From positions 930,001 to 994,000 of the forward strand of contig NZ_JAMXLX010000001.1 of assembly GCF_024055605.1 (NCBI RefSeq): a stretch of 64,000 bases of DNA, given 5' to 3'. The stretch comes from Ciceribacter sichuanensis (GTDB lineage Bacteria > Pseudomonadota > Alphaproteobacteria > Rhizobiales > Rhizobiaceae). The notes beneath the pieces were generated by a model, which saw only the letters and a program-made list of their open reading frames with translations, ran no database searches and was not told the origin of the DNA. The position numbers and the translations under genes were made by a program. This document shows positions 1-37,656 of the stretch, one piece after another (within the stretch, counting starts at the first letter, position 1; the number at the start of each line of letters is the position of its first letter).

Positions 1-118
1 GGGGGTGCCTTTTGCCGCCCCTGCTTTCTTGTTTTTTCCGAGCCTGTACAATGGCTGCCAAAGGGTGACTGGCATGCCATGCCTTGTCGTGTTCATGCCA
101 AGATTGGGATGCGCTTAG

Positions 119-217
119 CGCATCGGCCCGAAAATCGGAATCGATTTTCGGAAAAGCTCGATGCGTAGATTCAAGATATTAGAGCGCCGTGCGTCCAAAT
201 GGACGCACGGCGCTCTA
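119..217. repeat. compound intergenic palindrome (rhizobial type)
   Basis: Two consecutive stem-loops. The first has outer arms CGCATCG (119-125) and CGATGCG (159-165) around inner arms CCGAAAATCG (128-137) and CGATTTTCGG (142-151). The second is a perfect 17-bp hairpin, 180-196 with 201-217, with a 4-nt AAAT loop. The arrangement looks like the short mosaic palindromes dispersed between genes in Rhizobiaceae. Assigning it to a named family such as RIME would need a genome-wide copy search. It contains no ORF. Confidence 0.75.
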
Positions 218-267
218 GCTCTCTCCGGCTGTGTTCCCGTTGCATTCATTATCAAGGTTTTTTTTGG

Positions 268-296
268 TTGACATGTGAACATAGGTTGAACAAAAT
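268..296 (+). promoter_or_regulatory. sigma70-type promoter with embedded LexA operator
   Basis: A consensus -35 TTGACA (268-273) is followed after 17 nt by a weaker -10 CAAAAT (291-296). The spacer carries GAAC-N7-GAAC (277-291), the direct-repeat LexA box known from Rhizobiales. A repressor bound there would block RNA polymerase, so the downstream micro-ORF at 324 is predicted to be DNA-damage inducible. The promoter may also contribute to dnaE, which begins about 230 nt downstream. Confidence 0.75.
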
Positions 297-323
297 GGAA
301 ACATAAAGAGTAAGGGGAGAGCC

Positions 324-410
324 ATGACTGAAATTCTTCGTGATGTCGCCGCATTCGCCTCCATTACCATGTTCGTCGCCAGCGTATCGGTGCTTGTGCT
401 GGCTCTTTGA
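324..410 (+). CDS. SOS-controlled single-span membrane microprotein (SidA-like)
   Basis: A 28-codon ORF. A strong ribosome-binding site (AAGGGGAGAG) ends 3 nt before the ATG. The protein has a short charged N-terminus (MTEILRDVAAFAS) and an uninterrupted hydrophobic run to the last residue, ending VLVLAL, as expected for one inner-membrane helix. It lies directly behind a promoter whose spacer contains a LexA box. Size, topology and control recall SidA, the 29-aa LexA-regulated membrane peptide of Caulobacter that delays division by acting on FtsW/FtsN. The functional match is inference, since I cannot align the two. The ORF is too short for most gene callers and sits 113 nt before dnaE. Confidence 0.7.
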   Translation: MTEILRDVAAFASITMFVASVSVLVLAL

Positions 411-523
411 CAGCTGTCGCATTTCTGTAGAGATCATCTCGGCATTGCCAATGCGGTCTGGACTTCGTTGCTCGGTCGGTCGAGAATTGAGCCGAGTCCT
501 TGCAGGTTGGAGATCGTACGGGA

Positions 524-3500
524 ATGGGTGATATGGCAACTGCGGAAGCCGGATCGGGTGTCTTCGAGGAGGGCCCGGGCTTTGTCCATCTGAGGATGCA
601 CTCGGCCTATTCGCTGCTTGAAGGTGCCTTGCCGCTCAAGAAGATACTGGGCAAGGCAGTTTCCGACAATCAGCCCGCCATCGCGATCACGGATACTAAC
701 AATCTGTTCGTGGCGCTCGAATTTTCCCAAAAGGCGATCGGGGACGGCATTCAGCCGATCATCGGCTGCCAGATGTCGATCGATATGGAGGATGCCGAGG
801 GCGAAAGACGCCCCGGACAACTCGCCGGCTATCCCGCCATCGTTTTACTTGCCGCCGACGATGAAGGGGCGGAACGCCTCGTCGATCTCGTCAGCCGCGC
901 CTACCTCGGCGGGGATTCGAGCCAGGCGGTGCATATCAGCGTTTCTTGGCTGGAGGAGCGTGGAACCGAAGGCTTGATTGCACTGACGGGTGCCTCCAAG
1001 GGTCCCGTGGACGTCGCTCTGAGGGAAGGGCATCGGCCGCAGGCCGAGGCTCGCCTTTTGACGTTGAAGCGCCTGTTCGGCGATCGGCTTTATGTCGAAC
1101 TGCAGCGTCACGGCGAATATGATCGGGGTCACGAACGCCGCATGGTGGCGCTTGCCTATGAGCACGATCTCCCGCTGGTCGCGACGAACGAGGCCTTCTT
1201 CCCGACCAAGGCCGATTACGAAGCCCATGACGCCCTGATGGCTGTCGCCCATAACGCAATCGTCTCGGATGACAGCCGTTTCCGTCTGACGCCGGATCAT
1301 TATCTCAAGAGCCGGAAGGAGATGTGCGAGCTTTTCGCCGATCTGCCGGAGGCGCTGGAAAACACGATCGAGATTGCGAAGCGTTGCTCGTTCTTCGTCG
1401 ATACTCGCAAACCCATCCTGCCGCGCTTCGCCGGCGTCGGCTCCGACCCGGAAGAGGCGGAGAGGGCCGAGGCCGAAGAGATGCGTCGGCAGGCGGTCGA
1501 AGGCCTCGACCGGCGATTGGCAGCCCTCGGCATGGCCGAAGGGTTCGAGGAGAAGGACTATCGCGAGCGACTGGAGTTCGAGCTTTCGATCATCGAGCGC
1601 ATGAAGTTCCCGGGTTACTTCCTGATCGTTGCGGACTTCATCAAATGGGCGAAGCAGCATGACATTCCGGTCGGTCCCGGTCGTGGTTCGGGTGCGGGGT
1701 CGCTGGTTGCCTATGCACTGACCATTACCGACGTCGATCCGCTGCGTTTTTCGTTGCTGTTCGAACGCTTCCTCAATCCGGAACGCGTCTCGATGCCCGA
1801 CTTCGATATCGACTTCTGCCAGGACCGCCGTGAAGAGGTGATCCGCTACGTGCAGCAGAAGTACGGGCGGGAGCAGGTGGCGCAGATCATTACCTTCGGT
1901 TCGCTGCAGGCACGCGCGGCGTTGCGCGATGTCGGTCGCGTGCTTGAAATGCCCTATGGTCAGGTCGATAAGATCTGCAAGCTGGTGCCGAACAATCCGG
2001 CCAACCCGACACCGCTTTCCAAGGCGATCGAGGAGGAGCCGAAGCTGCAGGAAGCGGCCGAGGAAGAGCCGGTGGTTGCCCGTCTTCTCGATATCGCCCA
2101 GAAGATCGAGGGTCTTTATCGCCACGCCTCGACGCACGCAGCCGGCATCGTGATCGGCGACCGTCCGCTGTCGAAGCTCGTGCCGATGTATCGCGATCCT
2201 CGTTCCGACATGCCGGTTACCCAGTTCAACATGAAGTGGGTCGAGCAGGCAGGCCTCGTCAAGTTCGACTTCCTTGGTCTGAAGACGCTGACGGTCCTGA
2301 AGACCGCGGTCGATTTTGTTCGCCGCCTCGGCATCGAGGTCGATCTCTCGGCGATCCCGCTTGACGACAAGAAGACCTACGAGATGCTGTCGCGCGGCGA
2401 GACGGTCGGCGTGTTTCAGGTGGAAAGTGCCGGCATGCGCAAGGCGCTGATCGGCATGAAACCCGACTGCATCGAGGACATCATTGCGCTCGTGGCGCTC
2501 TATCGTCCCGGTCCGATGGAAAACATTCCGGTCTACAACGCACGCAAGCATGGCGAAGAGGAAATCGAGTCGGTCCATCCGAAGATCGATTACCTGCTCA
2601 AGGAAACCCAGGGCGTTATCGTCTACCAGGAACAGGTCATGCAGATCGCGCAGGTGTTGTCGGGCTATTCGCTCGGCGAAGCCGACCTGCTGCGCCGTGC
2701 CATGGGTAAGAAGATCAAGGAGGAGATGGACAAGCAGCGCGCCCGTTTTGTCGATGGCGCCGTCAAGAACGGCGTGTCGAAGAACCAGGCGGATGTCATC
2801 TTCGATCTCCTGGCCAAGTTCGCGAACTACGGCTTCAACAAGTCGCATGCGGCCGCCTACGCCATTGTTTCCTATCAGACAGCCTATCTGAAGGCGCACT
2901 ATCCGGTCGAATTCCTCGCCGCGACCATGACCTACGATATGGCCAACAGCGAAAAGCTGAACGACTTCCGGCAGGACGCCGGTCGTCTCGGTATCACTGT
3001 CGTTCCGCCATCGGTCCAGACGTCCTACCGCCGTTTCGAGGTGGGCGAGAACCGCATCTATTACGCTCTGGCCGCCATCAAGGGCGTGGGCGATTCCGCC
3101 GCCGAGCACATCGTCGAAGTCCGGGGCGACAGGCCTTTCGCCTCGATCGAGGATTTCTGCCTGCGCATCGATCCCAAGCAGATCAACCGTCGCGTCTTCG
3201 AAAGCCTGATTTCGGCCGGCGCCTTCGATTGCTTCGGTCATGATCGCGCCGAACTGGTCAACGGTCTCGACCGTGTTCTCGGTTATGCCCAGCGCGCGCA
3301 GGAGAACGCCGTTAGCGGACAGTCCGACATGTTTGGATCAGGCGGGGCCAGCGGGCCGGAGAAGATCGCCTTCCCCACCTATAACGCCTGGCTACCCTCG
3401 GAAAAACTGCTGCGCGAATTTCAGGTTCTCGGCTTCTACCTGACCGCCCATCCGCTCGATTCCTATCGCTCGCTGTTGGAAAAGATGCGGGTGCAGACCT

Positions 3501-4015
3501 TCGCTGATTTCGCCCAGTCGGTGCGGCAGGGAGCGACCGCCGGACGTCTGGCAGGCACGGTCACGTCGCGTCAGGAGCGCAAGACCCGCACCGGCAACAA
3601 GATGGGCATCGTCACGCTGTCGGACTCCTCCGGCCAGTATGAAGCCGTGCTCTTTTCCGAGGGGCTCAATCAGTACCGCGATCTGCTCGAAGCCGGAAAG
3701 TCGCTGGTCATCACCGTTCAGGCGGATGAACGCCCCGAGGGCATCGGCCTGCGCATCCAGACGGCACAGTCGCTTGAGGAGAAGTCGGTCCAGATGCAGA
3801 AGGCGTTGCGCGTCTATGTGCGCGACAGCGGGCCCCTGAAAACGGTCGCCGCTCACCTCAATACGCGTGGTGACGGTCTCGTCTCGTTCATCGTCATCAA
3901 GGAGGACGGCAAGCGGGAGATCGAGGTCGAACTCACCGAGAAATACCGGATCTCGCCCGAGATTGCGGCTGCCATGCGGGCCGCCCCGGGTGTGGTGGAT
4001 GTCGAACTGGTGTGA
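524..4015 (+). CDS. dnaE: DNA polymerase III subunit alpha
   Basis: Catalytic subunit of the replicative polymerase, 1163 aa from the ATG at 524. A TTG at 500 and an ATG at 533 are alternative starts. The order is the N-terminal PHP domain (FVHLRMHSAYSLLEGAL), the polymerase core with GPGRGSGAGS and the metal-binding PDFDIDF near residue 425, the third acidic site in VKFDFLGLKTLT, helix-hairpin-helix repeats, and a C-terminal OB fold. The length and the PHP motif fit DnaE1, the essential enzyme. The SOS-induced DnaE2 is shorter and is usually found with imuA/imuB, which are absent here. A weak hairpin follows the stop. Confidence 0.97.
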   Translation: MGDMATAEAGSGVFEEGPGFVHLRMHSAYSLLEGALPLKKILGKAVSDNQPAIAITDTNNLFVALEFSQKAIGDGIQPIIGCQMSIDMEDAEGERRPGQLAGYPAIVLLAADDEGAERLVDLVSRAYLGGDSSQAVHISVSWLEERGTEGLIALTGASKGPVDVALREGHRPQAEARLLTLKRLFGDRLYVELQRHGEYDRGHERRMVALAYEHDLPLVATNEAFFPTKADYEAHDALMAVAHNAIVSDDSRFRLTPDHYLKSRKEMCELFADLPEALENTIEIAKRCSFFVDTRKPILPRFAGVGSDPEEAERAEAEEMRRQAVEGLDRRLAALGMAEGFEEKDYRERLEFELSIIERMKFPGYFLIVADFIKWAKQHDIPVGPGRGSGAGSLVAYALTITDVDPLRFSLLFERFLNPERVSMPDFDIDFCQDRREEVIRYVQQKYGREQVAQIITFGSLQARAALRDVGRVLEMPYGQVDKICKLVPNNPANPTPLSKAIEEEPKLQEAAEEEPVVARLLDIAQKIEGLYRHASTHAAGIVIGDRPLSKLVPMYRDPRSDMPVTQFNMKWVEQAGLVKFDFLGLKTLTVLKTAVDFVRRLGIEVDLSAIPLDDKKTYEMLSRGETVGVFQVESAGMRKALIGMKPDCIEDIIALVALYRPGPMENIPVYNARKHGEEEIESVHPKIDYLLKETQGVIVYQEQVMQIAQVLSGYSLGEADLLRRAMGKKIKEEMDKQRARFVDGAVKNGVSKNQADVIFDLLAKFANYGFNKSHAAAYAIVSYQTAYLKAHYPVEFLAATMTYDMANSEKLNDFRQDAGRLGITVVPPSVQTSYRRFEVGENRIYYALAAIKGVGDSAAEHIVEVRGDRPFASIEDFCLRIDPKQINRRVFESLISAGAFDCFGHDRAELVNGLDRVLGYAQRAQENAVSGQSDMFGSGGASGPEKIAFPTYNAWLPSEKLLREFQVLGFYLTAHPLDSYRSLLEKMRVQTFADFAQSVRQGATAGRLAGTVTSRQERKTRTGNKMGIVTLSDSSGQYEAVLFSEGLNQYRDLLEAGKSLVITVQADERPEGIGLRIQTAQSLEEKSVQMQKALRVYVRDSGPLKTVAAHLNTRGDGLVSFIVIKEDGKREIEVELTEKYRISPEIAAAMRAAPGVVDVELV

Positions 4016-8432: not shown

Positions 8433-9719
8433 CTACTTGTTTCCACGGTCGAAGGTGTAGCCCGTTTGCACGGTTCCCTTGCCGAATTTGTCGCGAAGCT
8501 TATCCATGGCGGCCTCTGCCCTGGCGCGCCGGCCGGCCTGTTCATCGATCAGGTCGGGTGGATCGGCGGTTGCTGCATCTGTCAGGTCCGTGACGCCGAT
8601 GCCGATCAGGCGGTAACGCGTACCATCGGTTTCCTTCTCGAGCAGCGAAAGCCCGGTGCGAAAGATCCTGTCAGCAAGCTGGGTCGGATCATCAAGCCGG
8701 CGGTTACGCGTGCGTCCCTTGAAGTCGGCGGTCTTCAGCTTCAGCACCACCGTCTGGCCTGCAATCCCGCTTTTTTTGAGACGCCATGCGACCTTCTCGG
8801 ACAATGAGCGCAGATGCACGACGAGGTCGTCGTAGCGCCAGATATCCTCGAAGAAGGTGGTTTCGGCTGAAACGCTCTTTGCGGGGTCGTTGAGGTGGAC
8901 TTCCCGGTCGTCGATACCGCGTGAGAGGCGCGAAAGCCGCTGGCCTATCGTGCCGTAGCGGCGCATCAGGTCGGTCTCGTCCATTTCCTGCAACTGGCCT
9001 ATGGTGCGGATGCCGTCCTTTTCCAGCGTGGCAGCAAAGGCCTTGCCGACGCCCCAGATCGTCGTCACCGGCCTCGGTGCCAGGAAGGAGACCGCTTCCT
9101 CCTCGCCGATCACCGAGAAACCACGCGGCTTCTGCAGGTCGGAGGCGACCTTCGCCAGAAACTTGCAGTAGGAGAGGCCGACCGAAACGGTAATTCCGAT
9201 TTCCTGCTCGATCTTGCGGGCGAAGCGGGCGAGCACGCGTGCGGGCGGGTCGTGATGAAGCCGTTCGGTACCCTTGAGCTCAAGGAAGGCTTCGTCGATC
9301 GACAGCGGCTGCACGAGCGGAGTCAGTTCCTCCATCATTGCCCGGATCTGCCGGCCGACGCGGGCATATTTCTCCATGTCTGGTTTGATGACCACAGCCT
9401 GCGGACAGGCCTCCAATGCCTTGAACATCGGCATCGCGGAGCGTACGCCATGAATGCGGGCGATATAGCAGCAGGTCGAAACGACGCCGCGCTTGCCCCC
9501 ACCGACGATCACCGGCTTGTCCGCGAGTTCCGGGTTGTCGCGTTTCTCCACCGACGCGTAGAAGGCATCGCAGTCGATATGGGCGAGCGTCAGGTTGTAG
9601 AGTTCTCGATGATAGACGAGCCTCGGGCTGCCGCAGGCCTTGCAACGCCTCAATCCCTCCGGCTGCCCACGCAGGCAGTCGCGACAAAAGCCCGGAAATT
9701 CTGCGTTTTCAGTCGTCAT
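8433..9719 (-). CDS. dinB: DNA polymerase IV (Y family)
   Basis: 428-aa translesion polymerase that copies damaged templates with low fidelity. A short N-terminal extension carries four cysteines, C12xxC15 and C26xxC29, a possible zinc ribbon absent from E. coli DinB. The palm starts with [12 protein letters not shown] (D49) and the second catalytic motif is [10 protein letters not shown]. Helix-hairpin-helix and little-finger regions follow. The start is the ATG at 9719, with a LexA box only 6 nt upstream and no recognisable ribosome-binding site between them. An in-frame TTG at 9731 overlaps the operator and is less likely. SOS induction is predicted. Confidence 0.95.
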
Positions 9720-9725
9720 GATTGA

Positions 9726-9740
9726 GAACAAAGGTTGAAC
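9726..9740. promoter_or_regulatory. LexA operator, GAAC-N7-GAAC
   Basis: GAACAAAGGTTGAAC. It differs from the box at 277 at one position. It covers the predicted dinB transcription start on the minus strand, and its right half GAAC forms most of a possible -35 (TTGAAC, 9735-9740) for the divergent acetyltransferase gene at 9792. One bound repressor could therefore control both directions. Confidence 0.85.
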
Positions 9741-9791: not shown

Positions 9792-10385
9792 ATGCAGGGG
9801 GAATTCTTCGCCCGTCCATTGACGCCGGATCTCTGGGCGGATTTCGAGGTCGTTATGGGGCCGCAGGGTGCCTGTTATGGCTGTTGGTGCACCTATTTCA
9901 GGATGTCGGCGGCGGAACGAAAAGAGGCATCGGCTGCGGAAAAGAAGGCCTTCATGCAGGCCAGGGTCGAGAGGCAGCCACCGCCCGGTGTCATCGGCTA
10001 TATTGATGGCGAGCCTTTCGGCTGGGTACAGGTCGGTCCGAGGGCCGATGTGCCGAATTGGAATTCACCGCGTACCGTGTCCCGGCCGTTGAACGAGGCG
10101 GATGCGAACGATCCCCAAGTATGGGCCGTAAGCTGCTTCATGATGACGAACAGAAGGAGAGGGCAGGGCTTGAGCCATGCCCTGTTGGGCGCCGCCGTTG
10201 ACTTTGCCAGGCAGAGCGGTGCCCGACTTGTCGAGGCCTGTCCCATGGAGCGGGCGAAGCAATCGAAATCGGTCAGTCTCTTTGTGGGGCCGGTCAATAT
10301 CTTCGCTGCCGCAGGCTTTGAGGAGGTGGCGCAACGCAAGGCCGGGCGTCCGCTGATGCGGCTTGTGCTCGACGTTGCGGCTTAG
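9792..10385 (+). CDS. GNAT family N-acetyltransferase
   Basis: 197 aa, starting at an ATG preceded by GAGGGG. The acetyl-CoA-binding segment is NRRRGQGLSHALLGAAVDFAR, matching the R/Q-x-x-G-x-G/A loop, followed by VNIFAAAGFEEV. The N-terminal part holds a Cys-Trp-Cys cluster (ACYGCWCTYF), typical of one subgroup of small GNAT proteins. The acceptor cannot be inferred. It diverges from dinB, and a LexA box overlaps its most plausible -35, so damage-linked expression is possible. The last 4 nt overlap the converging HAD gene. Confidence 0.8.
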   Translation: MQGEFFARPLTPDLWADFEVVMGPQGACYGCWCTYFRMSAAERKEASAAEKKAFMQARVERQPPPGVIGYIDGEPFGWVQVGPRADVPNWNSPRTVSRPLNEADANDPQVWAVSCFMMTNRRRGQGLSHALLGAAVDFARQSGARLVEACPMERAKQSKSVSLFVGPVNIFAAAGFEEVAQRKAGRPLMRLVLDVAA

Positions 10386-19053: not shown

Positions 19054-21717
<2,664 letters not shown>

Positions 21718-37621: not shown

Positions 37622-37656
37622 TTGACATTTGCTTCCGGTTTGAACAAATAGGGAAC
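37622..37656 (+). promoter_or_regulatory. promoter with LexA operator before the 79-aa gene
   Basis: TTGACA (37622-37627) is a perfect -35. The LexA-type direct repeat GAAC-N7-GAAC occupies 37642-37656, overlapping the likely -10 (CAAATA, 37645-37650, at 17 nt). The start codon lies 16 nt after the box. Confidence 0.75.

Follow-up and report, generated by a model that had tools for sequence, protein, structure and literature searches.

SOS-controlled division inhibitors such as SidA of Caulobacter have mostly been found species by species, as they are tiny and evolve quickly. In Gram-positive bacteria, YneA, SosA and others are likewise LexA-controlled single-helix division inhibitors, although the YneA-type proteins are larger and have extracellular parts. 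TisB and DinQ of E. coli are also SOS-controlled membrane peptides of a similar size, in their case type I toxins with antisense RNAs; TisB is a 29-aa LexA-controlled membrane toxin with a charged, amphipathic helix. According to a published report, YneA acts on FtsW (PMC13396833), as does SidA itself, a 29-aa SOS-induced inner-membrane inhibitor which, in a model that includes DidA, holds FtsW/I/N in an inactive state (PMC4211646). DidA is likewise a single-helix inhibitor acting on the FtsW/I/N complex, but is 71 aa long and SOS-independent (PMC4211646). Constitutive sidA expression has been given as the explanation for filamentation of a lexA deletion (PMC12700426). The window analyzed here (the whole 64,000-nt stretch of Ciceribacter sichuanensis DNA) carries a 28-aa ORF that is likely, in our judgment, a rhizobial SidA homologue, probably the syntenic orthologue: a peptide that would be repressed by LexA, derepressed upon DNA damage, and hold the late divisome inactive. 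Supporting this reading in the sequence are the ORF itself, the selection upon it, a conserved operator, a position before dnaE1 that is shared with SidA, and profile homology.

A preliminary description of this DNA had listed a promoter with GAAC-N7-GAAC in its spacer, a Shine-Dalgarno sequence, and a 28-codon ORF encoding one helix. All of these are present, and the features concerned are as follows (window coordinates):

268–296, + strand: sigma-70-like promoter, TTGACA (268–273), 17-nt spacer, CAAAAT (291–296)
277–291, + strand: LexA-type operator GAAC-N7-GAAC, GAACATAGGTTGAAC, between the promoter hexamers (by sequence pattern and family conservation)
299–302, + strand: third operator half-site, AAAC, keeping the 11-nt period
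about 312–320, + strand: Shine-Dalgarno sequence, AAGGGGAGA
324–410, + strand: 28-codon ORF, MTEILRDVAAFASITMFVASVSVLVLAL, ATG at 324 and stop codon ending at 410; predicted membrane peptide, assigned to the SidA family
524–4015, + strand: dnaE1, DNA polymerase III alpha (NF004226, 1523 bits), the next gene on the strand
8433–9731, − strand: dinB, DNA polymerase IV (NF002751, 732.9 bits), an SOS comparison gene outside the microORF unit

The CAAAAT hexamer is a weak −10, and 268–296 was the sole match in a promoter scan of window positions 150–700 (shuffle mean 0.3). The ORF product has one hydrophobic helix and no charged residue C-terminal to D7. The dnaE1 start (ATG at 524) is our choice inside an ORF spanning 500–4015.

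Taken alone, GAAC-N7-GAAC does not exceed chance in the window, with four matches against 2.15 expected and at least four in 16 of 100 shuffles. The three-half-site pattern GAAC-N7-GAAC-N7-RAAC, formulated after the site had been seen, has a single occurrence in the window and appeared in none of 100 shuffles. Genome-wide, the box pattern gave 189 matches compared to 71 for a reversed-pattern control, and a LexA-type box (GAACACAAATGGAAC) lies just 5′ of the lexA gene, the only LexA_DNA_bind match in the genome. Another box (GAACAAAGGTTGAAC, 9726–9740) overlaps the start of dinB. Given that dinB of C. crescentus is reported to lie outside SOS control (PMC1839093), the regulon may differ here. 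We consider the 277–291 box meaningful because of its third half-site, the boxes at lexA and dinB, and the near-fixed spacing before the ORF family-wide (see below). About 97% of Caulobacter SOS promoters are reported to have a single box (PMC12700426), while the half-sites at the microORF promoter are repeated in both Caulobacter and rhizobia, which suggests unusually tight silencing of this promoter, as would fit a division-blocking peptide. The box at dinB stands between that gene and a GNAT-like ORF (9792–10385, recognized by eye), and two more GAAC-N7-GAAC sites occur in the window, at 21631–21645 and 37642–37656.

The ORF was found in all 36 genus genomes searched (E 8e-11 to 1.7e-4), compared to matches in only 4 of 24 genomes from other families in the same search, all with E of 0.25 or worse. 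Among 30 genus sequences (30 of the 36 genomes; 28 distinct DNAs), none had lost the ATG or the codon-29 stop, and the variable columns at codon positions 1, 2, and 3 numbered 16, 5, and 25 of 28. The pN/pS of the ORF in this set was 0.318, with column shuffles averaging 0.89 (minimum 0.47) and none of 300 as low. On this evidence we regard the ORF as a real gene under protein-level purifying selection. Residues D7, A9, A10, F11, S13, and F17 are invariant across 32 sequences, and the conservation moment computed for a conserved helix face was not significant in any of three ranges (1504, 877, and 1974 of 5000 shuffles).

The family search covered 297 genomes, with matches at E≤1 in 197 of them; beyond an E of about 0.001 these include chance matches. 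From the genus and family searches we assembled 78 Rhizobiaceae loci on the basis of their ORF match (the top 30 from the genus search, a further 28 from the family search, and 20 more hand-picked to E of about 5e-6), all exceeding the Kyte-Doolittle hydropathy filter that was itself used in picking them. The ORF is 28 codons long in 76 of these, and a Shine-Dalgarno-like motif is found in 77. The box is exact in 66 loci, with one mismatch in 11 and two in 1, and starts 45–53 nt before the ATG in 74 and 36–37 nt before it in 4, figures that carry a mild bias, as the scripts favored box-preceded starts in choosing the ATG. At the third half-site, 66 of 78 loci have GAAC or a single mismatch to it, compared to 6.2% of nearby 4-mers. 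Where the box is exact and 45–53 nt before the ATG (63 family loci), TTGAC lies 4 nt 5′ of the box in 54 and 5 nt in 5, and was not found in 4. The check put forward in the preliminary description, conservation of start, stop, and LexA box in relatives, was thus borne out for all three. Three loci of one genus (L038, L045, and L046 of g54) have an extra exact box 224–262 nt before the ATG, besides the usual one.

For the converse case, we turned to 28 family genomes, of which 26 had no profile match and two (G063 and G064) only chance-level ones, and read the sequence preceding dnaE1, which could be located in 27. An exact box was present in 4 of these 27 upstream regions, each time followed by a diverged membrane ORF, and in 2 further regions a box with one mismatch accompanied a hydrophobic ORF, one of these two cases being doubtful. 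Neither box nor ORF was found in the other 21. A LexA box kept where the ORF had been lost, which the preliminary description had named as evidence against its reading, was seen in none of these 27 family loci. Since box and ORF vanish together while dnaE1 stays, the LexA-type box appears to serve the microORF rather than dnaE1.

The regions upstream of dnaE1 were also read in 14 named genomes (six Caulobacter, three Phenylobacterium, two Brevundimonas, Maricaulis, Robiginitomaculum, and Microvirga). In 13 of these, a script returned a 29–34-aa membrane ORF behind GAAC repeats; in the fourteenth, a Brevundimonas (L284), the ORF fell below the hydropathy filter and was read by eye. The Caulobacter ORF is 29 aa (e.g., in the record labelled Caulobacter vibrioides T5M6, L283) and has dnaE1 on one side and a divergent nucleoside hydrolase on the other, with an IU_nuc_hydro protein identified in two loci. 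This arrangement fits that of C. crescentus, where sidA is CCNA_02004 (PMC11034885), CCNA_02005 is a nucleoside hydrolase (PMC3667746), and dnaE is CC1926 (PMC1839093). The NCBIfam model for the cell division inhibitor SidA (NF033228; cut-off 35 bits) matched all nine Caulobacter and Phenylobacterium ORFs at 54.1–73.6 bits; the two Brevundimonas ORFs scored under the cut-off (25.6 and 27.1 bits), and among the other peptides tried no match was obtained for those of Maricaulis, Robiginitomaculum, Microvirga, four Hyphomicrobiales, and one Sinorhizobium. Exact-box pattern hunts for sidA in Caulobacter (in three and in six genomes) did not show the gene, because each repeat pair before it carries one mismatch; it came to light through its position next to dnaE1. 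The window locus resembles that of SidA in its dnaE1-proximal position, directly upstream of the polymerase gene, in its GAAC-repeat operator in the promoter (as judged from sequence), and in encoding a very small protein with a single predicted hydrophobic helix. It differs in that the peptide is 28 aa, lacks the tryptophan found in the Caulobacter core (FVWM), and is below NF033228 detection, and in that its GAAC pair is exact and a lolD-like gene, rather than a divergent nucleoside hydrolase, lies upstream.

NF033228 gave no match at E≤10 to the window peptide or anywhere in its genome. A profile built from 11 Caulobacter-group ORFs (Caulobacter, Phenylobacterium, Brevundimonas, Maricaulis, and Robiginitomaculum) did detect the window peptide, at 17.5 bits with 0 of 200 shuffles as good. 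Against 32 Rhizobiaceae peptides the same profile scored 8.1–24.8 bits, with 31 of the 32 beating all 200 of their own shuffles; in the controls, 2 of 6400 shuffles were as good and reversed peptides reached at most 3.5 bits. The window's own family was excluded from the “other” sequences in these final tests. The window peptide scored 16.6 bits (0 of 200 shuffles) with a profile built solely from 10 ORFs of other orders, and adding 17 Hyphomicrobiales sequences to the Caulobacter-group profile raised its score to 34.5 bits. The reverse test was weak, as only 2 of 11 Caulobacter-group ORFs beat all their shuffles with a Rhizobiaceae-only profile (107 of 2200 shuffles as good); with Hyphomicrobiales added, 9 of 11 did so (4 of 2200). 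We read the weak result as that of one family whose narrow rhizobial profile is too specialized to detect Caulobacter. The register R/K-D/E-xx-A-F/L-x-S is common to rhizobia and Caulobacter cores. Given that the window peptide falls outside NF033228, we do not file it under that equivalog and instead place it in a wider SidA homology family, to which its profile matches assign it, well outside the known range. The preliminary interpretation accordingly stands in part: the LexA-box microprotein is under selection and related to SidA, with profile homology and shared gene position carrying the comparison beyond mere resemblance, but the peptide falls short of the NCBIfam SidA equivalog.

Its homology, position, and control make a SidA-like role the most likely one for the rhizobial peptide. 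We infer that LexA would occupy the promoter via the GAAC direct repeats and leave the gene nearly silent, and that DNA damage, through the RecA filament and LexA self-cleavage, would derepress it. The strong ribosome site would then give a burst of a single-helix peptide inserted into the inner membrane, which would keep the late divisome (FtsW/FtsI/FtsN) inactive, and division delayed, until LexA returns. As the polar growth of rhizobia differs from the growth mode of the SidA host, the divisome target may differ as well; with a defined gene in hand, a rhizobial damage checkpoint becomes testable in this different setting.

The microORF could instead be a leader peptide or uORF regulating dnaE1 translation or transcription, with the operator there for dnaE1. 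Such a role would suit the neighborhood, as in 77 of the 78 loci dnaE1 follows in the same orientation, at a median gap of about 165 nt, and an sORF in the dnaE1 5′-UTR of S. meliloti has been published (PMC10117765). We nevertheless consider it improbable, since selection acts on the amino acids, box and ORF are lost together where dnaE1 is retained, and no intrinsic terminator was found between the ORF and dnaE1 in the window. The gap is also variable, at 131–578 nt in 76 loci and 1.8 kb in another (L173). In the one remaining locus (L180; G272:C1:1714100-1718500), box and ORF are present with no dnaE1 within 3.9 kb downstream, a natural separation of the candidate checkpoint gene from dnaE1, so the linkage expected of a dnaE1 leader peptide is not obligate. 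The L180 microORF adjoins gamma-glutamyltransferase-like and peptidase-like ORFs (by eye).

A SOS membrane toxin resembling TisB, which would depolarize the inner membrane and bring about dormancy with no divisome binding, would fit the size, SOS-type control, and single helix equally well. It has little probability in our view, as the absence of charge after D7 departs from the charged amphipathic TisB helix, and the short leader with an open, strong Shine-Dalgarno sequence appears unlike a long structured leader paired with an antisense RNA. Rfam (E≤1) found no known antitoxin RNA in window positions 1–1000, with only a sub-threshold BASRCI27 match at 108–251, although an undescribed antisense RNA may be present. 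Homology and position, moreover, tie the peptide to SidA, and six invariant residues in 32 sequences are more specific than a pore former needs. We regard as very improbable that the peptide is a SidA-related SOS peptide retargeted in Rhizobiaceae, for example to polar-growth or lipoprotein-export machinery rather than FtsW. The Rhizobiaceae peptides are indeed shorter at the C-terminus (28 aa, compared to 29–38 aa in other families) and have no tryptophan, unlike the Caulobacter and other Hyphomicrobiales forms, and lolD is upstream in the window's genome; yet the core register is kept from rhizobia to Caulobacter, and a lolD neighbor, being common to non-rhizobial genomes too, is uninformative on the target. 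The SidA-like division checkpoint remains our preferred reading.

The same gene order extends beyond Rhizobiaceae. When 297 genomes of the order were searched with a wider profile (A2, 32 sequences), 83 had matches at E≤0.5, the weakest of which are chance matches. Among 25 new loci that were read, dnaE1 lies just downstream in 22 and an exact box is present in 15 (within the scanned stretch, which was misplaced for L265); the ORFs are about 29–38 aa, with a core like RDxAAF...FVA...W.D. The first rhizobial profile, applied class-wide (385 genomes), gave 15 matches besides the window, at E 0.016–0.099, which we treated as chance. In a peptide-blind survey, we further scanned 900 nt of sequence 5′ of dnaE1 in 89 out of a set of 202 genomes of the class that excluded the window's own. 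Exact boxes occurred in 21 of the 89 regions, and in 16 the box was followed within 70 nt by a hydrophobic ORF of 24–42 aa, 2 of these being from the window's order and 14 from other orders. Ten scrambled or respaced box controls gave 0 such regions in nine cases and 1 in the tenth, and the opposite strand gave 0. Allowing one mismatch (Hamming count) added no regions of the 89, and with controls reaching 0–6 of 89 at that tolerance, only exact boxes were counted. The remaining 73 regions did not show the arrangement in this test; as far as these patterns go, it is found widely yet by no means universally, or else has diverged.

On balance, we lean towards SidA being an ancient alphaproteobacterial SOS division checkpoint, encoded beside dnaE1 under a LexA operator not only in rhizobia but in several other orders, rather than a peculiarity of the Caulobacter group. 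If so, it would have been missed because the peptides are only 26–39 aa long. To our knowledge, SulA is lacking in rhizobia and their relatives, and an ancient checkpoint of this kind, if true, would answer how these bacteria halt division after DNA damage without it. The shared order of LexA box, microORF, and dnaE1 provides a rule for finding such genes without sequence similarity.

The preliminary description had also held that the ORF was overlooked by gene callers, which is only partly right. Hadjeras et al. (2023) detected by Ribo-seq a novel sORF, sORF25, in the dnaE1 5′-UTR of S. meliloti and suggested a regulatory role, in a report whose main text makes no mention of SOS, LexA, or SidA (PMC10117765); translation of an sORF at this place was thus already in print. 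From gene position, rather than a comparison of sequences, we infer that sORF25 is the same gene as the rhizobial microORF. Sinorhizobium sojae (G196) has a 28-aa orthologue (MTDFVRDLAAFASMTLFIVSVSVIALGM) with an exact box before dnaE1. Among the literature matches listed, none linked SidA to rhizobia, which does not establish that such a link is absent in print. Our reading offers a candidate role for sORF25, so far seen as a possible dnaE1 regulator.

The lolD-like gene upstream of the microORF was matched over a fragment, its 248.5 bits falling short of the full-length cut-off. A long, perfect-looking inverted repeat without a T-run, agagcgccgtgcgtcc-aaat-ggacgcacggcgctct, was noted by eye at 181–216 and is perhaps the end of the lolD transcript. 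The sub-threshold match to Brucella sRNA CI27 (RF02600, BASRCI27; 45.5 bits, gathering threshold 59.8, E 2e-8) at 108–251 lies just 5′ of the promoter and is possibly a dispersed intergenic element; the one core 19-mer tried from this region occurs a single time in the window.
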